NCBI GenBank assembly: GCA_027717875.1
Contig: JALLOL010000003.1
Location: 1 to 36,632 of the forward strand
Source: Acidobacteria bacterium AH-259-L09
Lineage (GTDB): Bacteria; Acidobacteriota; UBA6911; RPQK01
Reading direction: 5' to 3'
Length of the DNA: 36,632 nt
The position numbers and the translations under genes were made by a program. The first letter of the stretch is position 1. Each line of letters opens with the position of its first letter. This document shows positions 1,705 to 31,955 of the stretch, one piece after another. The notes beneath the pieces were generated by a model. The model had not been told where the DNA came from. It saw only the letters and a program-made list of their open reading frames with translations, and did no database searches.

Positions 1705-2532
1705 TTAACGGCCATTCCAAAAGGGTGGCGCATAGTATTGTGCCTTGTCCCCCAGACGCTGTAGCAAATCTTCCTTCATTTGCGGGGGATATTCTGAAGT
1801 CGGAATCGCTTGAGCTATCTCAATGGCTTTTGTTAACTCACCCAAAAACTCGTAACTCTCAATCAACCCCAGCCGCGCGCCAAGTCGACAATCGGCACAG
1901 CTTGTCCTGTCTAACACCTCCTGAAAGCACTCCACTGACTTCTCGTACTCACTTTGAATTTGCAAAATTGTCCCTACTCGGGCACGCGCTTGCTCCACCA
2001 GATGATCAGCGATTCCCTCCTCGATGAGGAGCCCAAATTTTCCAAGAGCCTCATCGAATTGGTTTAACTGCAAATAAGCATCACCCATCTTAAAGAGAAC
2101 TCGACGATGAAGCTCCGGTGAAGTGTCTAGGATTTGGATGTATCCCAAGTAATCGAGTGCCTGTGTCAAATCTCCCAGCTCCACCTCATGAATCTCTGCC
2201 AGCTTCAGATAGGCATCAGCACTCAAGTGGCTATCCGGATACTCCGTGACCAGTTTACGGAAATAGATTAGTGCTCGCTCGACGTTATGAAAGTTGACGT
2301 AATAAATCGTTCCGATTTCCCACAGAGCATCATCCGCATATCGACTCTTGGGATAATTTCGATAGACGGATTCGTAGAGCGCGGCGGCCTTCATATGGTT
2401 CCCCTCCCGCCACTGGTTTTGCGCGCGCTCCATCTGGACGCGCACTTCATTTTCAGTTTGGAAATAGAGCCAGACGCCGACTCCGAAGATCAAAAAGGGG
2501 ACTGGCAAAATCCAGCGAAGTTTATCATCCAT
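1705..2532 (-). CDS. Membrane-anchored tetratricopeptide-repeat protein coupled to gyrA
   Basis: The 275-residue protein has a single N-terminal transmembrane segment (about residues 6-24, [18 protein letters not shown]) and then TPR-like helical pairs through most of its length, for example [31 protein letters not shown] near residue 45 and repeats of the form [17 protein letters not shown]. This layout resembles YbgF/BamD-like periplasmic scaffolds, so it is probably inner-membrane anchored with the repeats outside the cytoplasm. Its ATG overlaps the gyrA stop by eight bases (ATGGATGA), so it is probably translated by coupling to gyrA. No enzyme motif was seen. The substrate or partner is unknown; a general protein-assembly or envelope role is only an inference from fold and topology. 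Confidence 0.8.
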
Positions 2533-4978
2533 CGACCACTTGCTCTTCTTCTCGCGGGACCAGTGTCATGTCAGCCACCTTATCCTCTTCCCCGAGGTCC
2601 ATGAGCTTGACGCCTTGAGCTACACGGGTGATCGTCTGGCGGATACGGTTGGCCTCCAATCGAATGATCTTACCCTTTTCCGTGATTATAATGACCTCGG
2701 AGTCGTCCTTGACGGCAAAACCGGAAACCACCTGGCCATTTCTGTGCGTCGTCTTAATGTTGATGATTCCCTGGCCTCCCCGTCCTTGTTGTCGGTATTC
2801 GCTTACCGGAGTCCGTTTGCCATAACCATTTTCTGTGACGACAAGGATGTTATCGGACTCATCGCGGATGATATCCATACCAACAAGCTCATCATCCTTT
2901 TTCAAGGCCATGCCCCTGACTCCTCGAGCCGTGCGTCCCATCCCGCGAACTCCTTTCTCCGAAAAGCGAATTGCTTTTCCATGCCGAGAGCAGAGAAGGA
3001 TATCATTATACCCGTCTGTTTGCCCAACGGCGATCAACTCGTCCCCTTCTTCCACGCCGCAAGCGATAATACCCGCAGTGCGGGGATTCGAAAAAGCTTT
3101 CAACTCGGTCTTTTTGATGTAACCCCAAAGAGAGACCATGACCACGTATCCCGCTTTTGTGAAATCCTGTACAGCAATCATATCGCGGACCCTTTCGCCG
3201 CGCTCGAGATTGATCAGATTCACGATCGGTTTCCCTTTTCCCGCCGAGCCCACATCTGGGATTGCATAGACTTTGAGCCAGTACATTCTACCCTTGTCGG
3301 TGAAGATGAGGATATAACTATGAGTGGAGGCAACGAAGAGATAGTCGATGACATCCTCTTCGGTTCTGGTAGACATACCGATGCGTCCTTTGCCTCCTCT
3401 TCGTTGACTTCTGTAGATGTGCAGGGCTGTTCTTTTGATGTATCCGTTATGAGTAGCGGTGATGACGACTGGCTCTTCGGCAATCAAATCCTCCATCGTT
3501 AGTTCAATCTCTTCATCAAGAATCACCGTCCGGCGTGGATTCTGGTAGTTCTTCTGGATTTCAATCAGCTCCTCTTTAATGACTCCTTTCAAAGCTTGCT
3601 CACTAGCCAGAATCCCTTGTAGTTGGGCGATCCTCTTGATGACGTGGTTGTATTCTTCGACAATCTTGTCTCGCTCCAGTCCTGTCAGGCGTTGCAGCTT
3701 CATGTCCAAGATAGCCTGGGCCTGAATTTCTGTGAATTCAAACTGAGCGCTAAGGTGGTCTTTTGCCTCCGCCGGCGACTTGGAATTTCGAATCAGGATA
3801 ATGACCGAGTCCAAATGATCCAGGGCTTTCTTTAAACCTTCTAAAACATGCGCCCGTTTTTCCGCTTTAACCAGTTCATAGACCGTTCGGGATCGGACAA
3901 TCTCCTGGCGATGTTCCAAGAACAGGTTAATGATTTCCACCAAACTCAGCACACGAGGTTGCCCATCGACCAGAGCCAACAAAATGACCCCAAATGAAGT
4001 CTGCATTGGGGTCAACTTGTACAGCTGGTTCAGAATAATCTGGGCTTGTTCCCCTTTTTTCAGTTCGATGACCACTCGCATCCCCCGGCGATCCGATTCA
4101 TCGCGAAGGTCACTGATCCCTTCAATCTTTTTGGCATGGACGAGGTGGGCAATTTTCTCGATGAGTTTGGCCTTATTTACTTGATAAGGGATTTCATGAA
4201 TAATGATTGCATCGCGGTCCTTTCCAATTTTTTCAATCGAGGCCTGAGCCCGCAGCCGTACAATTCCCCGTCCCACTTTGTACGCTTGGCGGATACCAGC
4301 GCGTCCATAAATGAGAGCGCCAGTGGGAAAGTCTGGACCGGGGACCAGTTCCATAATTTCCGCCAGCGAAGCGTCAGGGCGATCAATGAGCAAAAGTGCA
4401 GCGTCAACAATTTCACCCAGATTGTGAGGTGGAATGTTCGTGGCCATCCCAACGGCAATGCCGGAGGCCCCGTTTACAATCAGATTGGGAATCCTGCCGG
4501 GTAACACGAGAGGCTCAGTTAAGGAATCGTCATAGTTGGGCTGGAAATCGACTGTTTCCTTATCAATATCCGCCAATAGCTCCTCGGCAATCCGCGACAT
4601 CCGGACTTCCGTGTAACGCATGGCTGCGGGCGAATCACCATCGACGGATCCAAAATTCCCCTGCCCATCAACCAGAAGTTCACGCATGGAGAAAGTCTGG
4701 GCCATTCGTACGATCGCGTCGTAGACAGCCGTTTCCCCATGAGGGTGATATTTCCCGATCACATCGCCAACCACACGGGCCGACTTTTTATAGGGTTTGT
4801 TATGAGTATTTCCCAGCTCGCTCATGGCATACAGGATTCGCCGGTGAACTGGCTTCAATCCGTCTCGAACATCGGGAAGCGCACGTCCGATAATCACGGA
4901 CATGGCGTAGTCCATATAGGAGGTCTTCATCTCTTCTTCGATGTTGACAGGGATTTCCTGCCCACGATATTCGCGCAC
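2525..4978 (-). CDS. gyrA: DNA gyrase subunit A
   Basis: Breaks and rejoins duplex DNA in the A2B2 gyrase that introduces negative supercoils. The 817 residues begin with the winged-helix and tower domain, where AAMRYTE places the catalytic tyrosine at residue 122, the same number as in E. coli. The quinolone-determining stretch [15 protein letters not shown] carries Thr83 and Asp87, so the usual Ser83 is a threonine. The GyrA-box QRRGGKG at the start of the C-terminal pinwheel marks it as GyrA rather than ParC. The long acidic tail of E. coli GyrA is absent. The start is GTG at 4978 with GGAAGGAGAG upstream. It lies 39 bases after gyrB and overlaps the following TPR gene, so the three form one operon. 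Confidence 0.98.
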
Positions 4979-5017
4979 TCTTACTCTCCTTCCAGTTTTT
5001 ATTTTTGTTAAATACGA

Positions 5018-7465
<2,448 letters not shown>

Positions 7466-7478
7466 TTAAACCCTTTTT

Positions 7479-7487
7479 ATTATACCA
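7479..7487 (-). promoter_or_regulatory. Extended -10 promoter candidate for gyrBA
   Basis: The minus strand reads TGGTATAAT, a perfect -10 hexamer (7479-7484) with the TGn extension, 26 bases before the gyrB ATG. No good -35 is present, which is acceptable for extended -10 promoters. The resulting leader would be only about 20 nt. Confidence 0.5.
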
Positions 7488-7552
7488 TATTGCCTCTGGG
7501 CGTGCGGGTCGCTTGCAGAAGATATAGTGCTTGTTAAGCCGCATAAATACCA

Positions 7553-7581
7553 TATATAGTGGTTCATGGTGGGGAGGTCAA
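7553..7581 (-). promoter_or_regulatory. Second promoter candidate for gyrBA
   Basis: Minus-strand TTGACC (7576-7581) and TATATA (7553-7558) are separated by 17 bases. It lies between the long palindrome and gyrB, and would give a leader of about 90 nt. Confidence 0.5.
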
Positions 7582-7583
7582 CT

Positions 7584-7690
7584 GAAGCTCTGAAAGGGAG
7601 GGAGGGTCGAGAGGGGTCAGACCTGGAGTTTTGAGTTTTTGGATCCAAAAACTCAAAACTCAAGGTCTGACCCCTCCCTTTCAGAGCTTC
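7584..7690. repeat. Long near-perfect palindrome across the dnaN stop codon
   Basis: The two arms meet at the GGATCC centre (7641-7646). The inner stem is 33 bp with one mismatch (7611-7643 with 7644-7676) and contains GGGGTCAGACC facing GGTCTGACCCC. The outer 17 bases (7584-7600) exactly mirror 7674-7690, which include the last codons and stop of dnaN; about ten extra bases (7601-7610) bulge from the left arm. The RNA would fold into one very long hairpin on either strand and could end dnaN transcription from the right or block read-through from the left. There is no terminal U-run. The GGGGTCAGA core recurs after prmC. Confidence 0.9.
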
Positions 7691-8787
7691 ATTGGCATGA
7701 TCACATACTGATGAAAATAATCCGCTTCCGGCTTGGGTTTCAAGAGACCCTGGGTCTCTTGATCGCGGAGTTCAATTTCGACCTGCTCACTGTCAAGTCC
7801 CGCTAGAAAATCGAGTACATATTGCGCATTAAAACCGATTTCAAGCGGTTCACCCTTATAGATTGCAGGCAAACTTTCTTTCGCTTCCCCAATGTCTGTG
7901 CCCGTGGAAAGGATGTCCAACTGATCCTCTTTGAGCAAAAACCGAACAGCGTGCGTCTGCTCGTCGGCCATAACCGATACTCGTTTGAGGGCATCGGCGA
8001 ACTCAAGTGTGCTCAAGCCGATCGTTTTATCATTTTCACGCGGAATGACCATTTCGTAGTTTGGAAATTGCCCTGTCAATACGCGGGAGACAAGCAGTCT
8101 CTCACCGATTCTAAAAAACAGGTGATTTTCACTGCTCGCAAACTCAATGCTGAGGACATCATCTGCCGACAGCTTACCGAGCTCAGTCAAGGTTTTTTGG
8201 GGAATCAGGATTCTTTTTTCTCCCTCGAGGCCTGCGATCTCGACGTTTCGCGAGATGAAGACCAGCCGATGTCCATCGGTCGTGACAAGAGTAATACTGC
8301 CTGGATTAACGATCATTAAGGCCCCGTTCAGGGTGTAGCGCGATTCTTCCTGGGTAATGGCAAAGACACAGCTTGCAATCATGTAGCGAACAGGCTTTGC
8401 CGGGAGGGTGATTGTTTTTTCAACCATGGAAGGGATATCAGGAAAATTCTCCTTGGACAGACTCGCAATCTTAAATTTGGACCTCTCGCAGGCAACGTGA
8501 ATCCAATTGTGACCATCGCTTTTGAAATGAATATCCGCTGGTGGGAGAAGGCGAACGATGTCAAAGAGCTTGCGCGCCGAAACGCTCAGTGCTCCGCTGA
8601 CCTTAATATTGGCGGGACATACACACTGAACTGTCACATCCAGATCAGTTGCTGTCACTGTCAAGGCATTGCCAGTGGTCTCGACCAGAAGATTGGAGAG
8701 AATGGGGACGGTTGTCTTTCTCTCTACCACTCCTTGAACATACTGGAGTTCTCTTAACAGCTCCCCTTTCTTAACCACAAAATCCAC
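7681..8787 (-). CDS. dnaN: DNA polymerase III beta subunit (sliding clamp)
   Basis: Ring-shaped processivity clamp that holds polymerase III and other factors on DNA. The 368 residues match the family length (E. coli 366) and show its three-domain pattern: an N-terminal VKKGELLRELQYVQGVVERKTTVPILSNLLVE stretch broken into family motifs, VTTDGHRLVF in the middle domain, and a C-terminal end reading YVIMPMKL, the usual clamp ending. The start is GTG at 8787 with AGAGGAG upstream. It follows dnaA by 56 bases on the same strand, the standard dnaA-dnaN order. Its last codons and stop form part of the right arm of a long palindrome, which is unusual for an essential gene. Confidence 0.98.
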   Translation of the reverse strand: MDFVVKKGELLRELQYVQGVVERKTTVPILSNLLVETTGNALTVTATDLDVTVQCVCPANIKVSGALSVSARKLFDIVRLLPPADIHFKSDGHNWIHVACERSKFKIASLSKENFPDIPSMVEKTITLPAKPVRYMIASCVFAITQEESRYTLNGALMIVNPGSITLVTTDGHRLVFISRNVEIAGLEGEKRILIPQKTLTELGKLSADDVLSIEFASSENHLFFRIGERLLVSRVLTGQFPNYEMVIPRENDKTIGLSTLEFADALKRVSVMADEQTHAVRFLLKEDQLDILSTGTDIGEAKESLPAIYKGEPLEIGFNAQYVLDFLAGLDSEQVEIELRDQETQGLLKPKPEADYFHQYVIMPMKL

Positions 8788-8843
8788 AGCTACTTACTCC
8801 TCTTCTGCATATTGCTGGTAGCTCCTCTGATGAGAGAGATAGC

Positions 8844-10163
8844 TTATCGAATTGTATCGAGCAGCTTATTTAAAGTGCTGTTGAGCCGGGGGTCTCTCTT
8901 GCGCAAATCTCCAATTTTACGGATCGAGTGCAGAACAGTCGTATGGTGCTTTCCGCCAAATTCCTTTCCGATCTGAGGCAGAGAATTATCGGTCAACTCT
9001 CGGGTCAAGAACATCGCCATTTGACGGGGCTCAGCCACTCGCCGCGAATTGTCTTTAGCTTTTAGGTCTGACACTTTCAACGAGAAGTGGTCAGCCACAA
9101 CTCTCTGGATGAGGTCAACTGAAACGATGCGAGCATTATTCTCAGCGATGTTTTTGAGGACCCGTTGTGCCAGCGAGAGCGTAATCTTCTCCCCGGTCAG
9201 ACTCCCATAGGCAGCCAAGCGCACTAAAGAACCCTCCAGCTCTCGAACATTGGATTTAACATTAGTGGCAATGAAAAAGGCCACAGCATCAGGTAAAGTC
9301 ACGTTTTCAAATGCCGCCTTCTTTCGTAAGATAGCAACCTTTGTCTCCACATCTGGCGGTTGCATATCAGCGATCAAGCCCCATTCAAAGCGGCTGTGGA
9401 GCCGCTCTTCTAAAGTAGGAATTTCTTTGGGCGGGCAATCGCTGGTGATGACAATCTGCTTTTGCGAGTCATACAAAGCGTTGAAGGTATGAAAAAACTC
9501 CTCTTGGGTTCGCTCCTTGCCTGCCAAGAACTGAATGTCATCCATCAAAAGCACATCGATATTGCGATATTTCTCTCTGAACCGGATGGTTTTGTCGTAG
9601 CGAATGGCATTAATCAACTCGTTCATAAACCGCTCAGAGGACATATACGTGAGCTGCGTTCCAGGAAGTTGGGACTTAATACAGTGGCCAATGGCGTGCA
9701 TCAGGTGGGTTTTACCCAACCCCACTCCGCCATAAACAAAAAGCGGGTTATAAGCCTTCGCCGGGCGCTCCGCCACTGCAACCGCAGCCGCATGAGCGAA
9801 CTGGTTGCAGCATCCCACCACAAAACTATTAAATGTATACTTCCCATTAAGATTGCAAAGCGAGGCCTCTCTACAGGGCTCCCTTAAGGCGGCTGCCAAG
9901 GCCTGGGTTTTCTCACGCGAATCATCGTCCACGATAAAGAAAACCTGAAAGTGGTCCAGATTCAGCTCAGAGAGCGAGTCTTTGATGACTTCCGAATAGT
10001 TCTCGGCAAGCCAATACTTGAAGTGCTTATTAGGTACCCGGATAAAGAGTTTTTTCTTACTTAGGTCTTGTTCTTGAAGGGAAGTCGGTTTGAACCATAT
10101 GTCAAAGTTCTGATGAGAAACCTTTTTCTCGATACATGAAAGAATGTTATCCCAGAGCTCCAT
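8844..10163 (-). CDS. dnaA: Chromosomal replication initiator protein DnaA
   Basis: AAA+ protein that binds DnaA boxes and opens the origin. The 439 residues contain an N-terminal domain I (LWDNILSCIEKKVSHQNFDIWF), a short linker, the AAA+ core with Walker A GGVGLGKT at 145-152 and Walker B LLMDDIQFLAGK with the acidic pair at 208-209, and the DNA-binding domain IV with the signature GGKHHTTVLHSIRKI near the end. Domain II is short. The ATG at 10163 has AAGGA upstream. The 424 bases before it hold DnaA-box-like motifs. No rpmH is found upstream; the upstream neighbours are HIT, ihfB-like and rpsA genes on the same strand. Confidence 0.98.
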   Translation of the reverse strand: MELWDNILSCIEKKVSHQNFDIWFKPTSLQEQDLSKKKLFIRVPNKHFKYWLAENYSEVIKDSLSELNLDHFQVFFIVDDDSREKTQALAAALREPCREASLCNLNGKYTFNSFVVGCCNQFAHAAAVAVAERPAKAYNPLFVYGGVGLGKTHLMHAIGHCIKSQLPGTQLTYMSSERFMNELINAIRYDKTIRFREKYRNIDVLLMDDIQFLAGKERTQEEFFHTFNALYDSQKQIVITSDCPPKEIPTLEERLHSRFEWGLIADMQPPDVETKVAILRKKAAFENVTLPDAVAFFIATNVKSNVRELEGSLVRLAAYGSLTGEKITLSLAQRVLKNIAENNARIVSVDLIQRVVADHFSLKVSDLKAKDNSRRVAEPRQMAMFLTRELTDNSLPQIGKEFGGKHHTTVLHSIRKIGDLRKRDPRLNSTLNKLLDTIR

Positions 10164-21645: not shown

Positions 21646-23067
21646 TCACAAGGCCTCCCCATGGCGAGGCGGAGCAAAAAACGGATCCACCTTTTCGCGC
21701 CGCGGCGCTTGCGTCAACAAAGAGACCATGATGAGCGAAATCACGGAAACAACAATCGCTGGAACAACTGCGTCAACCGCGGGGCTTCCATAGACCTTCC
21801 ACGTTAACGTCACCGCTGTCCCCAGAACAATTGAACTCACAGCCCCCGGGGCGGTGGCTCGTCTCCAAAAAAAGGCTGCCAGAAGGGCAGGGGTGATCCC
21901 TGCTCCGTAGATGGTGTAGGCCAACAAAGCGACGGAGAGAAACTCATCAGATAGCGTGGAGAGGTAATAGGCAATTACTCCCAGAACGACAACAACCAGT
22001 CTTAGTAAGAAAACCAGAAAGCGCTCTGAAGCCTTCGGATTCACAAATCGCTGATAGATGTCACGCACTACAGAAGTGGCAGGCGCCAAAAGATAGCTGC
22101 CAGCGGTGGACAGTACGATTGCCATGATGGTGGTCAACACCACAGCTCCCAAAAAGGGAGGGAGATGATCGCGCGCTGCGTAGGCGATCACGCGCCCATG
22201 GATCTCAAGATCCGGTTCCAGCGAACTCGCCACCCAGGCCGTCATGATGATCATGCACTCCATAAAGGCCACCCCAGCCAACATCCAAAGAACGGCCTTG
22301 CGGGCAACACCTGCACTGCGCGCGGAAAAGAATCGTTGATACATATTCGCATCGCCTAGCACCAGCAAAAAGGCTGGAAGCAGTAATCCCACTGCCTCTA
22401 CTGGAAGAATGGGGCCAAAGAGATCGAAGTGTGAAGGTGCGAGGGCGCGCCTCATTCCTTCCAGCCCATTCGCCTGGACCCAAAAAACGGACAGGGCAGT
22501 GGATATTCCCAAAATCATGGTGACGCCCTGCACCACTCCGATGTATGCAATCGAGAACATCCCTGCCGTGGCCGTGTAAATAACGATAAAAATAGTAGTG
22601 AGGATGACGGCACTTTTCACCGGCAGGTCGGGAAGCGCCAGGTTGAGCACTGCTCCCGCCGCCCGGTACTGATACGACACAATGGTGGTATAGGCGATCA
22701 CCAGGGTGAGCACACCAAAGAGGCGAGCGGTGGCGTTGTAGCGTTTCTCCAATAGATCCTGAATAGTGATCTGTTTTAGTCCTCGGGCTCGGCCGGCAAT
22801 CCCATGCAGCACGGCGATGCCCAGAATCGATGCCAGGGGAAGGATCAGCGCCGCAATACCTACCCGATAGGTTTTCTCGGCATTTCCAAAAATACTCCCT
22901 GTGCCGATCCAGGTGGCCAGAAGCGTGCCAAACAGTACAAATGTATTTAGCTTCCGCCCCGCCACTGAGAAATCTTCCTGCGTTGCCACCCCCCGGCTTC
23001 CCTTAAAGCCCACAGCAACCAACACCAGCAGATAGACCAGAATCATCCAGAAGTAAATCGTGGTCAT
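21646..23067 (-). CDS. Sodium:solute symporter (SSS family)
   Basis: Integral inner-membrane transporter driven by the sodium gradient. The 473 residues form about 13 hydrophobic segments. Family features include an N-terminal FKGSRGVATQEDFSVAGRKL loop, LATWIGTGSIFGNAEKTYRVG and VLSTAGSYLLAPATSVVRDIYQR, which contains the conserved Ser region of the second sodium site. The sequence is nearest the SSS group that includes pantothenate, proline and uncharacterised solute carriers; the substrate cannot be assigned. Its ATG at 23067 overlaps the stop of the preceding selenoprotein frame as ATGA, so translation is probably coupled. It converges on pcm. Confidence 0.9.
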   Translation of the reverse strand: MTTIYFWMILVYLLVLVAVGFKGSRGVATQEDFSVAGRKLNTFVLFGTLLATWIGTGSIFGNAEKTYRVGIAALILPLASILGIAVLHGIAGRARGLKQITIQDLLEKRYNATARLFGVLTLVIAYTTIVSYQYRAAGAVLNLALPDLPVKSAVILTTIFIVIYTATAGMFSIAYIGVVQGVTMILGISTALSVFWVQANGLEGMRRALAPSHFDLFGPILPVEAVGLLLPAFLLVLGDANMYQRFFSARSAGVARKAVLWMLAGVAFMECMIIMTAWVASSLEPDLEIHGRVIAYAARDHLPPFLGAVVLTTIMAIVLSTAGSYLLAPATSVVRDIYQRFVNPKASERFLVFLLRLVVVVLGVIAYYLSTLSDEFLSVALLAYTIYGAGITPALLAAFFWRRATAPGAVSSIVLGTAVTLTWKVYGSPAVDAVVPAIVVSVISLIMVSLLTQAPRREKVDPFFAPPRHGEAL

Positions 23068-23789
23068 GGGGTGAGCTTAAAGGTTCTTTGATGGGTACCG
23101 AAATTGGTTACTTCTGCCTGTGAAGCTGCAACAACCACCCGCAAGACCTCATAGTCTTTGCTAACTTCTGGAATGCAAAAGTGTGCTTCGAAAACATTCG
23201 TTCGGCCGGCATACTCTAACTCGAGATCCTGAATTCGATGCTCATTGTGAAAAACGACTGCATGGACCGTCAGCTTGTTAGCGTCCCAGAGCCCACCGGG
23301 CTCGATGGGACACCCTCAAAGCAACCGGATCGATGCCTGCAGGTGAACCGCATCGCCAGAGCGAAAGACATCGACGCTCTCCGGCGTCATGATGTCCACA
23401 ATGAATCCGTGAAGCTGAAGTATTAAACCCTCTCCGAGAATGCTCTCTCCCGGAATCAACCAAGTGCTGGTTGAGGCTCGCTCTAAAGCTTGCGGATAAG
23501 CTAAGGGGCCTTCGGCTATAATTTCAACTGGGGTTGGCTCAGTTAAAAGGATTTTTGCGCTATAGGCCGCCGCCCCTTTGGTTCCGTAGACCACTGCCCT
23601 TCGCTTGTGGGGGCGCTCCATAATGGATTCTGTATCCCCGGACCCACCGAGATGTAATCCCTGAGCCAATACCTCACCGGTCAGCCGATGTTGGATGGTG
23701 ATGCGACAGCCACCAACCAGAGAGCCAATAATCTTGGCATCGCAGGAAACAATTCGCACGGTGATTTCAGTAGGTTGCGGTTCCAGCAT
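23064..23789 (-). CDS. Probable selenoprotein with in-frame UGA (Sec158) and Sec-Gly-Cys-Pro motif
   Basis: I do not recognise a named function. The frame starts at an ATG with GGAGG six bases upstream and runs 157 codons to a TGA (23316-23318), then continues in the same frame for 83 codons to a TGA at 23064-23066, giving 241 residues. The part after the first TGA reads GCPIEPGGLWDANKLTVHAV and is clearly protein-like; it ends in an ATGA overlap with the symporter. A SECIS-like hairpin follows the TGA directly. Decoding the TGA as selenocysteine gives Sec158-Gly-Cys160-Pro, a redox-type Sec-x-Cys pair; other cysteines are 16, 28 and 205. There is no signal peptide, and both halves look beta-rich, Ig-like. 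From memory, homologues exist with Cys-Gly-Cys-Pro at this place, which I could not check. The alternative is a nonsense mutation in a pseudogene. Confidence 0.8.
23283..23318 (-). promoter_or_regulatory. Candidate bacterial SECIS element following the in-frame UGA
   Basis: On the minus strand, after UGA and four bases, GUCCCA (23306-23311) pairs with UGGGAC (23283-23288), then an unpaired UC bulge (23304-23305), then GAGCCC (23298-23303) pairs with GGGCUC (23289-23294), closing a GGU loop (23295-23297). All twelve pairs are perfect. The loop begins 18 nt after the UGA and carries G in its first two positions, as the known SelB-binding hairpins require (E. coli fdhF has a loop at a similar distance and also a bulged U). 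Confidence 0.85.
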
Positions 23790-23807
23790 AAAATCCCTCC
23801 AGTTCTA

Positions 23808-23827: not shown

Positions 23828-24100
23828 GCTCCCGAGATTAGCAAAAACTGCGGTGAAGAGAAACCGGTTGGGAGCCCCGAGCCCGATCGCGCCAACAATG
23901 TCATCCTATTTCTGGGCGATGCCATTTTGGTGCTGACCACTCCTGAGTTTTCCCGGCGCCGGGCCGAGGGTGCAGGAGATTCTCGAGTAGGTCATGGTTG
24001 GCGGCGGTCACGGATGAAGCATGTCAGCGACATCATGAACAGCCTGGATTACCCACAGGGATACGGATGGAGTTACGGTTTCTGGACCCAGTCACCTTAA
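23822..24100 (+). pseudogene. Chimeric remnant: alkaline-phosphatase-like and RND-permease-like fragments
   Basis: An open plus-strand frame without a start codon fills this 302-base gap. Around 23882-23920 it reads PDRANNVILFLGD, which resembles the N-terminal metal-site segment of alkaline phosphatases (NVILFIGDG). After an unrelated stretch it reads, from 24014, MKHVSDIMNSLDYPQGYGWSYGFWTQ (in pieces), matching the segment ISETMEGLDFPPGYSWSFGFWTQ of the neighbouring minus-strand RND permease. The two fragments are in one frame and end at a TAA (24098-24100) that overlaps the permease end. The DNA of the RND piece differs enough from the neighbour to be an old paralog, not a recent copy. An 8-bp inverted repeat GGGCTCCC/GGGAGCCC (23826-23833, 23870-23877) lies inside. 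Confidence 0.6.
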
Positions 24101-27100
24101 TGCTGCAGTTTCCTGTGAGCTTTGCTGCACAGCTTCGGGAGAACTCGCCCGCCAGAGCCGCTTGAGCCCTATAGAGAAGTCGTCAATCAAAGTGTAGTAG
24201 GTCGGGAGGACCACCAGAGTGAGGACCGTGGAGGCCATCAGCCCGCCCATGAGGGTCCGAGCCATAGGGAAATAGCGCAGATCGAAGAGCGAGCTGGTGC
24301 CAAGGGCCAAGGGCATCAGTCCCGCCACAGTCGTGCCAGCCGTCATCAGAATAGGTCGGAACCGCTCCCGACAACCCTCGAAAACTGCCTGTGACCTGTC
24401 GAGACCTTTGTGCCGCAGATTATTGATGTGATCGATCAGCACGATGCCATTATTAACCACGATCCCGATCAGGATCAGAATACCGATTTGAGCCATGATA
24501 TTGAACGGAGTACCCGTCAGGAATAGAAACCAGGCCACTCCGGCTGCCGCGAACAGCAGGGAAATCATGATCGCAAATGGATGAGCCAGAGACTCGAAAA
24601 GAGCCGCCATGACGAAGTAAACCATGAAGAGGGCAAGTAATATGTTGAAGGCAAACTCTTGCTCCTGCTTGTTGCCGCGTTGAGTCCAAAAGCCGAAACT
24701 CCACGAGTAGCCGGGAGGAAAGTCCAGACCCTCCATCGTTTCGCTTATGAGCTTCTTCCCTTCATCCTGCTTATCGCCGCCATAGTTGCTCAGAATCTCC
24801 GTGTAGGTGCGGCGATTCTCCCGCTGGATTGACCCGGGAGACCTGACTATTCTCAGATCAGCTACCTGGGAAAGGAGGATCTGTTCTCCGTTGGGTCCTG
24901 CCCCGACCACCATCGATTTCAGATCCGACAGGTTTTCACGGTCGCTGGGCTGCAATTTGATCCAAATATCCACCTCCCCTTGGGAGGTTCGATACCCTCG
25001 AATCTCGCGGCCCCGAAGCACAATGCCCAGGATGTTTGAGACGGACTCGGGGGAGACGTTGTACCTCTTCGCCAGCTGCCGATCAAGTACAAGCTGGACC
25101 TCTTGCTGACCGCGATCCAAAGCCCTGCGAATCTCCGCGAATTGACCGCTGCCTATAAATCGTTTTTTTGCCTCCCGCGCCAGCTCCATGAGGATGGTGC
25201 TGTCTTCTCCGTAAAGATTCACGCCAATCCAGTTACGGTTTTCTGCGCCCTCCTGGAAATCCAGCCGGATCTCGGCTCCTGGAATAACAGGCAGGCCTGC
25301 GGCAATCTGCTTCCGAACGTCCTTGAGTTCGTCAAGCGTGATTCGCTCTTTATCGAAGTAAATCCGCGTCGCCGCTTCGTTGTTGGCGTAGAAACTGTAG
25401 ACATCTTTAATTTTGAGACGCTTCCCGTTTTCGAGCAGGAACTCTTCGACGGGAACCACGTAGTCCTGTTCTATTTTGGCGTAATGGTAGTTTTCTGTGA
25501 ACTCGTATTCGACTCCCAAGGACTGCAGCTCTTGAGCTTCCGGTGAACTGTCCGGCAAATTAAACAGGAGCCACGAGGAGACGCCAAGGACCAAGGGCAC
25601 AATCAGAAACCCAACCAGGTACCGATGTCTGAGGGTCCAGCCCATCAGCTGGAGGTACCTTTCAACTACCGGGCTCTGAGGTATGGAAGCCTGCTGAGAG
25701 TCACCAGTTCCATCTGCTCGTCCTGACCCGCCGCGTCGGCCGAAAAACCAACGGAGAGCCCCCTTCATTCGGGCACCCAATGCCCGCTGCCAAGGCGGGC
25801 TCTTTTCCATCCGAGCACTCAGCAGCCTGGCTGCCCCAAGGGGGATAAGGGTGAGGGAAACGAAAAGTGAACAGAGCAGCGTAATGATAATAGCTGTACC
25901 CGTGTGCCCAAGAAAAATGGTGAGATTCGTCTCTTTTCCAAACACAAGGGGTACGAAGATGATGATCGAGGTAAGTGTGGCAGCCATTACTGCCCGGATC
26001 ACCTCTTGGGTCCCCACGCAAGCCGCCGAAACTCTCGTCTGTCCCTTCTCAAGTTGCTGGCAAATGGATTCCAGTACCACAACCGCGTTGTCCACCAGCA
26101 TCCCCGTCGCCAGCATCAGGCCCATCATGGACAGTACATTCAAGCTGTTCCCCAGGAGATACAAAAACCCGATTGAGGCGACAATCGAAAATGGGATAGA
26201 CACTCCGATCAACAGCGTCGGCCCTATTCTCCTCAGGAACAAATAGAGCACCCCAACGGCCAGAATCGCTCCGATGAAACCGGCATTCAGAAGGCCGGAA
26301 AGCGATTTCGTGATTTCCTCACCCGAATTGTGCCAAATCAGCACCTCAATCCCCTCCAAGGCCGGATCTCTGTTGAGTTCCTCGATCTTGGCCAGCACTC
26401 GATTGACGGTCTCAACCGTGTTGGCGTCTGACGCTTTCCGAATCTCTAGCGAGACGGCAAATTCACCGTTCAGATGACGACCAAACACGGGTTCAGGATC
26501 CCGCAACTGCACATCGGCGATGTCCGACAGAGTCAACCCCCGGTCATTGGCAGGAAAATTGGCGATCTGATCCAGCGAATCGACGGCACCTTTACTCAGG
26601 ACGCGGTAGCGACTGCCTCCGTCTTCGATTTCCCCTAAAGCGAGGTTCAAGTTGGCGCTGTCCAGGCGTCGAAAAAGCGCATCGACGTCCACACGGTAGC
26701 GTTTGATTTCATCAATGCGCAGATAGATATCCACCTCCCGACGCTCCACACCTCCAAGGGAGACATCGGCAACGCCCGGCACACTCTCCAACGGCTTCTT
26801 GATCTTGAGATCCAAAAGACCGTAGGAACCACGAAGATCTCGCCCGGAGGCGATACGTCCCTCCACTATCGGGATGTCATTCGTATTGAAGTTCAGAACC
26901 AAGATGCGATCCACGTCTTCAGGAAGGTCCTTTCGAGCCTGTTCCACCGTTTCCCGAACTTCTGACCGGAGCAGGTCAATATCCTGATCCCATGGAAACA
27001 TGAGTTCGATCACTGCTTCATCGGCACTCGAGCGTGACGTAATGCGGTCGACATGGGGGATGGTGCTCAGAACTTCTTCCAGCGGTTTTGTAATAGAGTC

Positions 27101-27331
27101 CTGAACCTGCCCAGGCGTCGAATTCGGATAGGGCACGACCACGACAACCACCGGGGCATTCAGGCTCGGAAAAAGCACCAGCGGGATTTTGTAGATTGAC
27201 ACCGCTCCCAGCAGCAGGAAAGAAACCAGCAGCATGCAGATGGTCACCGGATACCGAATTGAGAATCCAGAAAGCCGGTACGCACTTCCAGCGGTAAGAC
27301 CTTCTCCCGGGCGGTAGGTGGAACTTCTCAT
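24092..27331 (-). CDS. RND efflux permease, second of a tandem pair
   Basis: Proton-driven inner-membrane pump of the AcrB/MexB superfamily. The 1079 residues have the duplicated 6+6 transmembrane plan with two large periplasmic loops. Seen are SIRYPVTICMLLVSFLLLGAV as the first membrane helix, GLMLATGMLVDNAVVVLESI in the fourth, a tract of helices around 470-520, and GILILIGIVVNNGIVLIDHINNLRHKG in the second half, a strong RND signature. The start is at 27331 with a GAGAGATGAG context. It lies 28 bases after the first permease and belongs to the same operon, together with the adaptor. Two different permeases with one adaptor recall MdtABC, where they form a heterotrimer. The substrate is unknown. 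Confidence 0.93.
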   Translation of the reverse strand: MRSSTYRPGEGLTAGSAYRLSGFSIRYPVTICMLLVSFLLLGAVSIYKIPLVLFPSLNAPVVVVVVPYPNSTPGQVQDSITKPLEEVLSTIPHVDRITSRSSADEAVIELMFPWDQDIDLLRSEVRETVEQARKDLPEDVDRILVLNFNTNDIPIVEGRIASGRDLRGSYGLLDLKIKKPLESVPGVADVSLGGVERREVDIYLRIDEIKRYRVDVDALFRRLDSANLNLALGEIEDGGSRYRVLSKGAVDSLDQIANFPANDRGLTLSDIADVQLRDPEPVFGRHLNGEFAVSLEIRKASDANTVETVNRVLAKIEELNRDPALEGIEVLIWHNSGEEITKSLSGLLNAGFIGAILAVGVLYLFLRRIGPTLLIGVSIPFSIVASIGFLYLLGNSLNVLSMMGLMLATGMLVDNAVVVLESICQQLEKGQTRVSAACVGTQEVIRAVMAATLTSIIIFVPLVFGKETNLTIFLGHTGTAIIITLLCSLFVSLTLIPLGAARLLSARMEKSPPWQRALGARMKGALRWFFGRRGGSGRADGTGDSQQASIPQSPVVERYLQLMGWTLRHRYLVGFLIVPLVLGVSSWLLFNLPDSSPEAQELQSLGVEYEFTENYHYAKIEQDYVVPVEEFLLENGKRLKIKDVYSFYANNEAATRIYFDKERITLDELKDVRKQIAAGLPVIPGAEIRLDFQEGAENRNWIGVNLYGEDSTILMELAREAKKRFIGSGQFAEIRRALDRGQQEVQLVLDRQLAKRYNVSPESVSNILGIVLRGREIRGYRTSQGEVDIWIKLQPSDRENLSDLKSMVVGAGPNGEQILLSQVADLRIVRSPGSIQRENRRTYTEILSNYGGDKQDEGKKLISETMEGLDFPPGYSWSFGFWTQRGNKQEQEFAFNILLALFMVYFVMAALFESLAHPFAIMISLLFAAAGVAWFLFLTGTPFNIMAQIGILILIGIVVNNGIVLIDHINNLRHKGLDRSQAVFEGCRERFRPILMTAGTTVAGLMPLALGTSSLFDLRYFPMARTLMGGLMASTVLTLVVLPTYYTLIDDFSIGLKRLWRASSPEAVQQSSQETAALR

Positions 27332-27359
27332 CTCTCAGGTTCTCCCCATGCGGTGGTTG

Positions 27360-30300
27360 TCAAAGACTGTCACCCGTAGGGGCCTCCAGGACTGGCGCGC
27401 TGTGCGGGGACGTTCCGCTTCCAACATAGACCTTGCGATCGACAAGCTCGTAAACAACAGGAATTAGGATCAACGTAATGAGAGTCGAGAAGAGCAGTCC
27501 TCCCATGACCGCAATTGCCATAGGAGCCCGCACTTCCGCTCCTTCACCCCAGCCCAAAGCCATTGGTATGAGACCCAACACTGTGGTGAGCGTGGTCATC
27601 AGGATGGGTCGCAGCCGGACGTGGCCTGCCTGGAGCAAGGCCTCACGTTTGGCGAGCCCCTGCCTGCGAAGCAGGTTTGTATAATCAATCAACACAATGG
27701 CATTGTTCACCACAATACCCGCTAGAACAATAGCACCCAGAAAAACCACAATACTGATTGTGGTTCCCGTCAGGAAGAGAGCCAGCAACACTCCCACGAC
27801 TCCAAACGGGACAGTAAAAATGATGATGAAAGGGTGAACCAGAGATTCGAACTGGGAAGCCATCACCAAGTAGACGAGGAAAACGGCCAGGGCAAAAGCA
27901 AAGAGCAGGCTCTTGTAGGACTTTTCCAGTTCTTCATTCTGTCCCGCCAGCATCACGGTCGTGCTAGTGGGAATTGCGGCCCGTAATTGCTGCAGTCGAC
28001 CCCGGATCTCCTCAGAAACACTGCTCAAATCACGGCCGACGAGGTTAGCGGAAACAATTGCCGCTCTCTGCGAGCGAATGCGGCGAATCTCGCTGGGACC
28101 CCGACCCAATTTCACATCAGCGACCGCTGCCAGCCGAATGGGCACCACATTAGGCTGCTCGCTGTCCACGGGTTGCCGCTCGCCGCTGTCGAACCGTACT
28201 TCGCCACGGCGAGTCCAGCTCCCTGAATTAATGACCAGGTTCTTCAGGTTGGCAATGGTGTTTCGATCTGCCTCCTCGACTCGCACCAGAACGTCAATTT
28301 GCTTGTCCTCTTCTCTGTAGCGGGTGGCGACATCACCGCGGATCTTGGTTCGCAAGACACTGGAAATCTGATTTTCTTCCAGCCCCAGCCTTGCCAGACG
28401 CTCACGGTTGAAGTGGACATGAATTTCCGGGTCACCCGGTTTTGTGCTGGTTTTGATATCGGTTAATCCCTGGATCTCTCCAAGATTGCTGGCAACTAGA
28501 CTGGCCGTCTCTTGCAAATCTTGCAGATCGTAACTGTAGACCTCAACTTCCACCGGCGTTCTAAAGCTGAATAGCGTAGGCCTTTTGAACTTGCAGGTAA
28601 TATCAGGATACTCTTGTAAGTCGGCGCGAACTCGGTCAATCACCTCAGCTTCCCGCGACTCGTCTCGCTTGTCTTTCATAACCACATAAAGCTGGCCAGT
28701 GTTTTCCTGGAGGGTATTGCGGGCAAACTGATTTTCGGTGCTGCCTCCCACGCTTGAAAAAACAGTACCCACCTCCCGGTACCCGGCTACACGTGTTTCA
28801 ACAGCTTGCATGACCCGGTTGGTGTACTGCAGGGGGCTGCCTTCGGGCAACTTGATCTCGAACGCAAACTCCCCCTGGATCAGAGGTGGAATCAACTCCG
28901 CTCCCAGGTACACTGCCATCCAGACGGATGCCGCTGTCAGAAAGAAGGCTGATCCGAAAACGGCCGCCTTATTGTTCAGTGACCATTGCAGGAACTGGGG
29001 ATAGCGGCGCGATAGGGTGTTAAACCCGCGCTCAAATCGATTTAAGACCGGCGAAAAAAGTCTCAGCAGAGATCGACCCACCGTCCGAAAGAGACGACGA
29101 ACGTCCATCACGACCACTCGAGGAGTCTCGACAAAAACGAAGCGAAGAACCCTGACCAAATTTCTATTTAATGTCCCAAAGAAAGGGCCGATGTTGCCAT
29201 CGGCCATTGGTTTGGGAGGGTTTGGAGGCGTGTCAGTGAGTGCGTTCTCCTCCGGCCCCCGGCCCCCTCGGGCAATTATCATGGGGATGCACGTCAGAGC
29301 CACCAGCAAGGATGCAAGTAGAGCGTAGGTAATTGTTAAGGCCTGATCCTTGAAAAGCTGACCCGCGATCCCTTCGACAAAGATCAGGGGAAGGAACACG
29401 GCGATCGTGGTAAGCGTGGAAGCGGTGACCGCTCGGCTCACTTCCTGAGTACCTTTATGGACCGTTTCTGCCAACCCCGCTTCCTGCTTTCGATGCCGAT
29501 GGATAGCCTCCAAGACAACAATGGAATTATCCACCAACATTCCCACTCCCAGCGCCACGCCTCCCAACGACATGATGTTCAGCGTAATCCCAGTTTGGTA
29601 CATGAGGGCAAAGGTGGCCATAATGGAAATCGGGATCGAGAAGGCAATCGTGAGGGTACTGCGCAGGTCACGCAAGAAGACAAAAAGTATCAGCGTGGCC
29701 AGAATCCCTCCCAAGACGGCTGCAGACAAAACGTTGAAGACAGAGTTCTGAATGAATTCAGCCTGATTAGAAACCACCTCATAATCGACGTTCTTTGGAA
29801 AGCGTTCTTTCTCTGCCAGGGTTTCCATTGCTCTGATCACCGCCCTCGCCACCGTCACCGTATTGGCGTCTCCCTGCTTGTAGATGGCCATTTCCACGCT
29901 TTCTTTTCCGTTGAGACGGGTGATGACTTCCCGGTCCTTGGTACCCCGCCACACCCGGGCTACGTCGCCCAGTACCACTTTTCGTCCCTGCTGATTCCGA
30001 ATGATGATTTGCTCGATTTCCTCCACCGAACGGAACTCGTTCAGCATCCGGACCAAGTAATTCGCATCCTGGTCGTAAAGACTCCCTGCGGCCTGGTTCA
30101 GGTTTTCCTGCCGCAGGACGTCCGTGACTTCTGTGATGGGAATCCCTAGTTCTGCCAGCCGCTTTTCATCGACCTCGATTGGGATCTGTTCTTCAAGTCC
30201 CCCGATCACCTTGATGGCAGCGACACCGTCGGTTGAGTCCAGGTGCTTTTTCAATTCTTCTTCCGCGGCATAACGCAAGGCGCTGAGACTGATGTCGCCG

Positions 30301-30725
30301 TAGACTCGAATCCGCATGATTGGATCGTGCGAGGGATCAAAACGAAGAATGACGGGTTTTTCTGCGTCGCGAAGCAAGTCGACGAAGTCCAGTTTTTCTC
30401 GCACTTCCAGGCTTGCAAGGTCCATGTCCGTGTCCCAGGAAAACTCAAGCACTACTTCCGACTGGCCGGAGCGAGATATGCTAGTCATTTTGGTGAGTCC
30501 AGGCACCACACCCACGGCTTCCTCAATAGGCTGGGTGATTAGACTCTCCACTTCTTCCGGGGCGGCGTCCTCATAGTCCGTCTGGACGGTCAGAGAGGGA
30601 TAGGAAATGTCAGGTAGAAGGTTGAGAGCCAAGCGGTCGAGTGAAACCAGCCCGAATAGAATCACCGCAACCACGAACATGGATACGGTTACGGGACGCT
30701 GTATGGCAGTTCTTATGAGATCCAT
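27360..30725 (-). CDS. RND efflux permease, first of a tandem pair
   Basis: The 1121-residue pump starts MDLIRTAIQRPVTVSMFVVAVILFG, the usual RND N-terminus. LNIMSLGGVALGVGMLVDNSIVVLEAI marks the fourth membrane helix and AIVLAGIVVNNAIVLIDYTNLLRRQG the tenth; AVFLVYLVMASQFESLVHPF is another family segment. It begins directly after the adaptor stop, so the two are translated together. A loop near residues 500-545 is longer than usual, with several prolines. It shares only the family pattern with the second permease, so it is not a recent duplicate. Hydrophobe/amphiphile export (HAE type) is more likely than metal export from the DN motif in helix four, but substrate cannot be assigned. Confidence 0.94.
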   Translation of the reverse strand: MDLIRTAIQRPVTVSMFVVAVILFGLVSLDRLALNLLPDISYPSLTVQTDYEDAAPEEVESLITQPIEEAVGVVPGLTKMTSISRSGQSEVVLEFSWDTDMDLASLEVREKLDFVDLLRDAEKPVILRFDPSHDPIMRIRVYGDISLSALRYAAEEELKKHLDSTDGVAAIKVIGGLEEQIPIEVDEKRLAELGIPITEVTDVLRQENLNQAAGSLYDQDANYLVRMLNEFRSVEEIEQIIIRNQQGRKVVLGDVARVWRGTKDREVITRLNGKESVEMAIYKQGDANTVTVARAVIRAMETLAEKERFPKNVDYEVVSNQAEFIQNSVFNVLSAAVLGGILATLILFVFLRDLRSTLTIAFSIPISIMATFALMYQTGITLNIMSLGGVALGVGMLVDNSIVVLEAIHRHRKQEAGLAETVHKGTQEVSRAVTASTLTTIAVFLPLIFVEGIAGQLFKDQALTITYALLASLLVALTCIPMIIARGGRGPEENALTDTPPNPPKPMADGNIGPFFGTLNRNLVRVLRFVFVETPRVVVMDVRRLFRTVGRSLLRLFSPVLNRFERGFNTLSRRYPQFLQWSLNNKAAVFGSAFFLTAASVWMAVYLGAELIPPLIQGEFAFEIKLPEGSPLQYTNRVMQAVETRVAGYREVGTVFSSVGGSTENQFARNTLQENTGQLYVVMKDKRDESREAEVIDRVRADLQEYPDITCKFKRPTLFSFRTPVEVEVYSYDLQDLQETASLVASNLGEIQGLTDIKTSTKPGDPEIHVHFNRERLARLGLEENQISSVLRTKIRGDVATRYREEDKQIDVLVRVEEADRNTIANLKNLVINSGSWTRRGEVRFDSGERQPVDSEQPNVVPIRLAAVADVKLGRGPSEIRRIRSQRAAIVSANLVGRDLSSVSEEIRGRLQQLRAAIPTSTTVMLAGQNEELEKSYKSLLFAFALAVFLVYLVMASQFESLVHPFIIIFTVPFGVVGVLLALFLTGTTISIVVFLGAIVLAGIVVNNAIVLIDYTNLLRRQGLAKREALLQAGHVRLRPILMTTLTTVLGLIPMALGWGEGAEVRAPMAIAVMGGLLFSTLITLILIPVVYELVDRKVYVGSGTSPHSAPVLEAPTGDSL

Positions 30726-31955
30726 TCAGTTAGCTGAAGACTTGTTCGTCAATTTGACCATGGACCCGTCTTTCAGTGCCCCGTGACCCGCTACTACGAC
30801 GGCCTCTCCCGGTGAGATACCCTGGCGAATCTCAACCTCTGCATTGCTTTCATAGCCTAACTCGATCGGCACCCGTCTGGCCTTATCCTTTTCTACAACG
30901 AAGACAAATCTCCGGTTATCTTCTTCCACGACTGCCCGCTTGGGAACCAGGACGGATCCCCGACGCGTGTCGCTCTGGATATCCACCTGCACAAAGGCTC
31001 CCGGCTTGAACGGTCCTCGAGCATTCTTCAGCTCCACAGTCACTTTCACCGTACCGGTGGATTGATCGACGATCGGGCTGACGCGGGCCACATGACCCTG
31101 GATGCTCTGCGATTCATCCACTCCGGAGATAACAGTAACAGACTGGCCGGGACTGACCTGACTTGCCTCTCGCTCGGACAGGAAGACCTCCGTCAAGAGT
31201 GGAGAAAAATCACCGAGCTTGAACAGCTCATCCCCATTCTTGACTGTCTGGCCGAGGTCCACCGTGCGCTTGGTGATATACCCGCTGTAGGGCGCCTCGA
31301 TTCGAGTTCGGGAGATTTCCAACTGTGATTGTTCAATTTCCGCTTCCAGCTCTTCCACTTTGTGCACCAATTCCCGCGACTCCGACGAAGACACCCTCAG
31401 GTCGTGCTCCAGTTCATCCAGTTTGTACTTGATCTGAGCCACCTCACGCTCGCTGACAAGCTTCTCCTTGTACAGTCTCTGATAGCGATCCAACTCCTCA
31501 CCGGTGTTCTTAACCTGAACCTGCGCCTTTTCATTGCGAATTCTTGACGTCTCCAGCTGGAGCTTGGCTTGGGCCAGTTTCTGCCTGGCTGACTGAAGAC
31601 GGATTCTGGGCTCGGTGTCGTCAAGACGACTAAGAAGCTGGCCCTTTCTTACATGATCACCCTCCTCTACCAGGACTTCTTTAGCTATGCCTTCTCCTTG
31701 TGCTACTACACTGACCTCTCGGAGTGGGCGCAGATTGGCGGTTGAACTAACAAAATAAGAAATTTCTCCCTGCCGGGCGCGGACCAGTTCAACCGGGACC
31801 GCCTCTTCATCGCCATTACCATTTCCAGGCGAGACCTCCGAACTGGCTCCAGAGACGGCGGAGCCCGGATAGACGTACTGTTTAATGAAATAGCCGGCTA
31901 CAGCAAACAAAGCGACCAGAATCAGAAACCCGTAAACTTTCTTCCTCAAGCTCAT
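30726..31955 (-). CDS. RND efflux periplasmic adaptor (membrane fusion protein)
   Basis: Links the inner-membrane pumps to an outer-membrane channel. The 409 residues start with a hydrophobic anchor (about 8-28), followed by a barrel-sandwich half ANLRPLREVSVVAQGEGIAKEVLVEEGDHVRKGQLL, a coiled-coil hairpin of about 100 residues rich in Glu, Gln and Lys (around 110-215), the second lipoyl half IEAPYSGYITKRTVDLGQTVKNGDELF, and a beta-barrel domain (VTVELKNARGPFKPGAFVQVDI). This is the AcrA/MdtA layout. It is first in the operon; its stop abuts the start of the first permease. No TolC-like gene lies in the window, so the channel must be supplied from elsewhere. Confidence 0.93.
   Translation of the reverse strand: MSLRKKVYGFLILVALFAVAGYFIKQYVYPGSAVSGASSEVSPGNGNGDEEAVPVELVRARQGEISYFVSSTANLRPLREVSVVAQGEGIAKEVLVEEGDHVRKGQLLSRLDDTEPRIRLQSARQKLAQAKLQLETSRIRNEKAQVQVKNTGEELDRYQRLYKEKLVSEREVAQIKYKLDELEHDLRVSSSESRELVHKVEELEAEIEQSQLEISRTRIEAPYSGYITKRTVDLGQTVKNGDELFKLGDFSPLLTEVFLSEREASQVSPGQSVTVISGVDESQSIQGHVARVSPIVDQSTGTVKVTVELKNARGPFKPGAFVQVDIQSDTRRGSVLVPKRAVVEEDNRRFVFVVEKDKARRVPIELGYESNAEVEIRQGISPGEAVVVAGHGALKDGSMVKLTNKSSAN

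Follow-up and report, generated by a model that had tools for sequence, protein, structure and literature searches.

A predicted selenoprotein family with a UGA-encoded Sec-Gly-Cys motif and a modelled tandem beta-sandwich fold in Acidobacteriota

Introduction

Does a gene of Acidobacteria bacterium AH-259-L09, listed in the databases as coding for a short protein, really end at its first in-frame UGA, or is this codon read as selenocysteine (Sec)? The gene lies on the minus strand of contig JALLOL010000003.1, in the stretch of 36,632 nucleotides that was analysed as a whole and is called the window here. An original prediction, made from the DNA letters alone, had proposed an unannotated selenoprotein with a Sec-Gly-Cys-Pro motif and a hairpin of the selenocysteine insertion sequence (SECIS) type directly behind the UGA. 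Comparison with relatives points in the same direction. The UGA sits where full-length relatives have Cys and a hairpin follows right behind it, and therefore a longer, Sec-containing product is likely. Judged from these sequence comparisons, UGA158 is very probably decoded as Sec, giving a 241-residue selenoprotein instead of the listed protein of 157 residues. The following features define the gene.

23064..23789, minus strand: predicted selenoprotein gene, 241 residues with UGA158 as Sec, based on the frame and on full-length homology
23318..23316, minus strand: in-frame UGA (codon 158, predicted Sec); the column holds Cys in each of the 170 full-length homologues seen, and 11 distinct loci, the window among them, have TGA
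23310..23312, minus strand: codon of Cys160, which forms a pair with Sec158 within Sec-Gly-Cys-Pro; all 79 full-length alignment rows have Cys here
23800..23795, minus strand: GGAGGG shortly before the ATG, probably the ribosome binding site (read by eye)

Results

The reading frame continues through the UGA

On the minus strand the frame starts with an ATG at 23789 and runs through 157 codons, the UGA and 83 sense codons to a final TGA at 23066..23064. This stop overlaps the ATG of a symporter gene at 23067 as ATGA. Frame, coordinates, the Sec158-Gly-Cys160-Pro motif and the overlap, all part of the original prediction, were confirmed on the sequence. The public record (P0002) lists a short protein of unknown function that stops at 157 residues, just as had been anticipated for ordinary gene callers. 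An open frame arising by chance was considered and ruled out, because homology covers the entire 83-codon extension. The frame would also be open if the genome read UGA as Cys or Trp throughout. This is already contradicted and deserves practically no credence, since 14 of the 23 other long frames of the window with a complete stop end in TGA, and so does the gene itself.

Full-length relatives carry Cys at the UGA position

A protein search returned 183 relatives, and among the 120 listed were 79 full-length proteins and 41 short ones of 153 to 205 residues. In this list, Cys occupies the UGA column in all 79 full-length proteins, and all 41 short proteins end at the residue before it. A profile search found 772 relatives; of the 120 listed, 91 were new, full length and again without exception Cys at this column. 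When the 157-residue part was used alone, 52 relatives were recovered, including five new short ones with the same end residue. Taken together, Cys is present in all 170 full-length homologues seen, and the 46 short ones all stop one residue earlier. The full-length homologues run through the UGA position with Cys, and thus the region behind it is an ordinary conserved part of the protein. Homologues with Cys-Gly-Cys-Pro, as named in the original prediction, do exist, and no full-length homologue seen has an unrelated residue at position 158. Homologues that seem to end naturally before the UGA exist as well, namely the 46 short ones. For two of them, P0075 (in L002) and P0214 (in L096), the protein could be matched exactly in DNA, and in both cases the next residues are UGA-Gly-Cys-Pro, followed by the hairpin. 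Weak genome matches outside the close family keep Cys-Gly-Cys wherever the motif is alignable, which it is not in L035.

UGA forms were also found in other organisms that use Sec. A phylum sample of 396 genomes contained 18 with a match, eight of them with one TGA, to which L020 is to be added. With loci from named genomes included, 11 distinct UGA sequences were collected, counting the window. One of these is from Acidobacteria AH-259-O06 (95% identical), while L002, L017 and L020 come from three other named Acidobacteriota. One genome (G011) holds two UGA-form copies on different contigs (L053/L102 and L049/L101), the second of which is cut by the contig end.

These data bear on two other explanations. 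Gene decay with a nonsense mutation, or else a sequencing error, would fit the public records, which end the protein at 157 residues, and one copy, in G005, does look broken. However, the identical UGA codon and the hairpin recur in 11 distinct loci from lineages spread over the tree, with conserved sequence downstream. Decay or error is thus already contradicted and hardly worth entertaining; against decay the original prediction had argued as well. Alternatively, the UGA could be a leaky stop, with the 157-residue N-terminal domain as the main product and the Sec form as a minor, regulated one, both of which would matter. Bacterial Sec insertion does compete with release factor 2, and 46 of 46 short homologues would yield the identical short domain. 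Against this, all 170 Cys relatives seen read on past this position without a stop, and conservation after the UGA is about as strong as before it. The nonsynonymous divergence (dN) between the window and L002 is 0.335 before and 0.254 after the UGA, and between the window and L096 it is 0.385 and 0.359, with synonymous sites at or near saturation in both comparisons. We consider a leaky stop quite improbable, and Sec insertion at UGA158 stays the preferred reading.

A perfect hairpin follows the UGA in all UGA loci

A candidate for the RNA element expected for Sec insertion lies directly behind the UGA.

23280..23314, minus strand: SECIS-like hairpin, loop GGU at 23297..23295, upper stem 23303..23298 paired with 23294..23289

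In the window the apical hairpin reads GAGCCC-GGU-GGGCUC, with 18 nucleotides between UGA and loop. The segment 23314..23280 folds at -25.7 kcal/mol, compared with -15.1 (standard deviation 2.6) for dinucleotide shuffles (z -4.06, 0 of 200 as stable). Synonymous recodings of the window peptide had a mean of -13.0, and 0 of 300 were as stable. Six of six stem pairs together with a three-base loop starting GG were present in 11 of 11 UGA loci and in 0 of 33 Cys loci. In the UGA locus L086 a compensatory swap has turned a G-C pair into C-G (CAGCCC with GGGCTG), and the stem of L002 contains one G-U pair. Ten of the 11 UGA loci are free of selection bias, since only L098 was chosen by a pattern that contains the 5' half of the stem. 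The comparison counts loci that fit the motif pattern; L026, L032, L051, L090 to L094, L107 and L109 do not fit and were left out, and all of them keep Cys-Gly-Cys.

Bacterial SECIS (bSECIS) limits are given in a 2026 review (PMC13188914) as a loop of 3-9 nucleotides with a G in the first two positions, an upper stem of 4-16 base pairs, a distance of 16-37 nucleotides from the UGA and an energy of at most -7.5 kcal/mol. We applied these limits to the apical hairpin by a script of our own. The hairpins of 11 of 11 UGA loci fall within them, as do 3 of 33 Cys loci and 7 of 75 ordinary TGA stops.

The codons for E-P-G-G-L are nearly palindromic, that is self-complementary, so that a weak hairpin is expected from the peptide alone. 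Under synonymous recoding, the mean z was -1.95 for UGA loci (10 loci) and -0.15 for Cys loci (31 loci; Mann-Whitney p 1.3e-4, the rows being related by descent). Because of this control, and since none of the 33 Cys loci has all six pairs, the perfect stem exceeds the effect of the peptide. The claim of a perfect SECIS-type hairpin right after the UGA thus stands for its presence and its conservation, but a weaker version of the structure comes with the encoded peptide.

Selenium machinery in the genomes of relatives

The original prediction had named the genes for Sec synthesis and insertion as a check. tRNA-Sec was found above 60 bits in eight of nine genomes with a UGA form (G005, G008, G011, G012, G014, G017, G380 and the genome of L020). 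In three of them (G008, G012, G014), SelA, SelB and SelD were all above their cut-offs in addition. SelD with an in-frame TGA was detected in six of the seven UGA-form genomes searched, the seventh having no SelD over the cut-off. For the genus of the window, SelA was found in G001. G001 and G002 each contain a SelD with an in-frame TGA and show a partial match to SelB that stays below the cut-off. SelA, SelB, tRNA-Sec and SelD thus all occur among UGA-form relatives, but the full set is not seen in each of these genomes. Among Cys-form genomes, 15 of the 24 examined have tRNA-Sec above 60 bits. That it occurs in only part of them is expected, because Cys forms would not need it.

SelD carries one in-frame TGA in most genomes having SelD over the cut-off (for example L070, L071 and L073), and none in G009, G013, G016, G018 and G081. 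On account of this TGA, SelD itself is a predicted selenoprotein in the former genomes. A single contig carries the gene, tRNA-Sec and SelD in G012 (C98; L096, L097), at 49.6, 63.0 and 74.1 kb, and in G005 (C1; L098, L099), at 8.9, 14.5 and 25.2 kb. This linkage may be just shared synteny, since the three are far apart in G014.

Sec and Cys forms alternate on the tree

We calculated a quick tree from 160 N-terminal sequences, in which short proteins were taken as Sec. The protein search contributed 77 of its 79 full-length sequences and every one of the 41 short ones; excluded were L102 (99 residues) and five loci that nearly duplicate others. At least five changes between Sec and Cys are needed on this tree, and three are forced by strongly supported branches. 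In the clade of the window (46 rows, support 97) the 41 short proteins are joined by four UGA loci and a single Cys form, P0003. UGA loci elsewhere on the tree (L017 with L100 and L101; L020; L095) are placed among Cys forms. Two further cysteines are typical of the short, signal-less UGA clade.

23742..23744, minus strand: codon of Cys16; Cys in 36 of 40 short rows and 1 of 79 full-length rows
23706..23708, minus strand: codon of Cys28; Cys in 40 of 40 short rows and 1 of 79 full-length rows

P0003, the Cys form within this clade, has both of them. By a simple hydropathy score, a hydrophobic N-terminus was found in 0 of 40 short rows of the window's clade versus 75 of 79 full-length rows. Since it is missing in this clade, the protein of the window's clade probably works in the cytosol. 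The relatives in other lineages, mostly Cys forms and mostly with a hydrophobic N-terminus, probably work outside the cytoplasm. P0216 and P0217 are short relatives that have a hydrophobic N-terminus and also end before the Sec column; they probably represent a further Sec lineage with signal peptide.

A modelled tandem beta-sandwich and a putative redox centre

In the AlphaFold2 model the protein consists of two beta-sandwich domains, and Sec lies in the second, immunoglobulin-like (Ig-like) one. The model is nearly all beta, with 15 strands of at least three residues and one helix of at least four. Sec158-Gly-Cys160 is placed in the loop after strand 147-156 of domain 2. Structure matches of this domain are of the macroglobulin/complement type and other Ig-like folds (3tp4, 2x2y, 4rtd), with identities of 8 to 19% in the rows shown. 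With the whole model, Foldseek returned titin, complement and other Ig-type chains at TM-scores below 0.4, useful only for the fold class. The likeness of domain 2 to these domains thus describes a common scaffold and implies no shared function.

A thiol/selenol redox centre is the most likely function. The comparison suggests that SelB, carrying Sec-tRNA, would recognise the hairpin and place Sec at the position held by Cys in full-length relatives. Sec158 would then attack an oxidised or disulfide substrate and Cys160 would resolve the intermediate, while the Cys16/Cys28 pair of the window's clade may supply electrons. Judged only by the order of the strands, domain 1 is expected to turn its 16-28 loop towards the Sec loop of domain 2.

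The gene neighbourhood and a possible metal site

The gene that begins inside the stop of the selenoprotein gene is likely co-transcribed with it.

21646..23067, minus strand: sodium:solute symporter (SSF) gene, PF00474, starting inside the stop of the selenoprotein gene

No symporter match was found beside the gene in L002 and L017. Ten neighbours were scanned with Pfam and gave ThiC, two Xaa-Pro peptidases, acyl-CoA dehydrogenase, class-V aminotransferase, DUF2252, gamma-glutamyltransferase, an FAD-binding protein, the symporter of L096 and one without match. Elsewhere in the window, gyrA, gyrB, dnaN and dnaA stand in a row at 2525..10163, the usual surroundings of a replication origin, about 13 kb from the selenoprotein gene. 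An Rfam scan of the window gave nothing at gathering scores. Upstream of the selenoprotein gene, on the same strand, two RND efflux pump subunits and a HlyD/CusB-type subunit lie in a row at 24092..31955.

This cluster bears on the main rival for the function of the selenoprotein, in which Sec-Gly-Cys, together with Cys16/Cys28 in the window's clade, is a binding site for a metal or metalloid such as copper, mercury, arsenic or zinc and takes no part in thiol-disulfide chemistry. A C-x-C site and two further conserved cysteines could indeed form a thiolate site, and besides the efflux cluster of the window there are weak matches to its RND or HlyD proteins within 4.5 kb of the gene in four of 28 related loci, all Cys forms (L004, L008, L021, L028). 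However, the efflux genes of the window end about 300 bases upstream of the ATG, RND genes are common, and the other 24 loci have no RND/HlyD match. Furthermore, none of the ten scanned neighbours is a metal gene by Pfam, and the alignment lists no nearly invariant His or Met. Metal binding is therefore an unlikely explanation, though one to be reckoned with, and redox chemistry remains the preferred function.

Observations that weigh against the proposed reading

Several observations count against Sec decoding and against a functional assignment. The selenium genes were judged from the genomes of relatives and not from the window's own genome. The ninth UGA-form genome (G002, 72% complete) reaches only 47.8 bits for its best tRNA-Sec. 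Among the seven UGA-form genomes searched, no SelA over the cut-off was found in G002, G005 and G011, no SelD in G017 and no SelB in G002. The nearest genome (G001, 65% complete) yielded neither a homologue nor a tRNA-Sec above 60 bits. The copy in G005 (L098) is homologous only from residue 121 on, and for this reason we regard it as broken or misassembled. Between the window and L001, the ratio of nonsynonymous to synonymous divergence is 0.76 before and 0.60 after the UGA, but the changes are too sparse for a statement on selection. The peptide accounts for part of the hairpin: depending on the Sec locus, a fraction of 0 to 0.18 of the synonymous recodings folds no less stably. Because loci and homologues share ancestry, the counts cannot be treated as independent. 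Finally, an adjacent symporter occurs only in the window, L001 and L096 among the window and 28 loci, so that the neighbourhood points to no substrate. As a guide to function the neighbourhood was rejected altogether, the ten scanned neighbours being varied and sharing nothing.

Discussion

The protein (P0001) has no Pfam or NCBIfam match, and 43 family members gave no Pfam match below E 0.001. A sequence search of the PDB found no solved structure, the one match being at chance level (E 0.87). Literature searches, at the level of listings, found no publication on the family. No family in the table of the 2026 review fits (PMC13188914); the review counts 119, and the families of Haft and Tolstoy 2025 are covered only as listed there. 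Because of these negative results we call it a new family among bacterial selenoproteins, set apart from the tabulated families by their listing. The suggestion that it may be a new family with no named counterpart is thereby borne out within the same searches.

Two groups of known selenoproteins come closest. DUF1573 selenoproteins (PF07610, motif UGC) have the Sec-Gly-Cys motif in common with the present family (PMC13188914, PMC9312934). They differ in that neither P0001 nor any of the 43 members matches PF07610 at E up to 1, and in that the present family has an extra N-terminal domain and P-x-E-P-G-G-L-W-D-A behind the motif. DUF1573 is probably likewise an Ig-like beta-sandwich domain with a conserved C-G-C-T; the comparison with it was made by Pfam model. 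A DUF1573 search of 13 related genomes gave two matches in one genome, both inside long frames, which were not used. UGC-containing TlpA and Prx-like selenoproteins also have Sec-Gly-Cys, with a presumed thiol redox role (PMC13188914, PMC9312934). From these the present family is distinguished by its two modelled beta-sandwich domains and the lack of any thioredoxin-type Pfam match. By their listed domains, TlpA and Prx-like selenoproteins are proteins of the thioredoxin fold.

As a whole, we tentatively picture a tandem beta-sandwich selenoprotein family that carries a dormant SECIS in the near-palindromic Cys-Gly-Cys-Pro-x-Glu-Pro-Gly-Gly-Leu-Trp. Cys would have been turned into Sec several times by a UGA together with synonymous changes of Pro and Gly codons, and in one clade the signal peptide would have disappeared and a cytosolic Cys16/Cys28 relay to Sec across the domain interface would have arisen. 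In all its parts together this picture is possible but rather doubtful.

With this finding the selenoproteins would gain a family of which databases list at least 46 relatives as short proteins, all cut at the same residue. A thioredoxin-like fold is found in most characterised selenoproteins (PMC13188914), and Sec on a beta-sandwich scaffold contrasts with this. The case also shows that truncation recurring at one and the same residue can be used to search for hidden selenoproteins. Repeated switching between Sec and Cys, together with a near-ready SECIS in the peptide, would allow a direct test of how a Cys gene is converted into a Sec gene.
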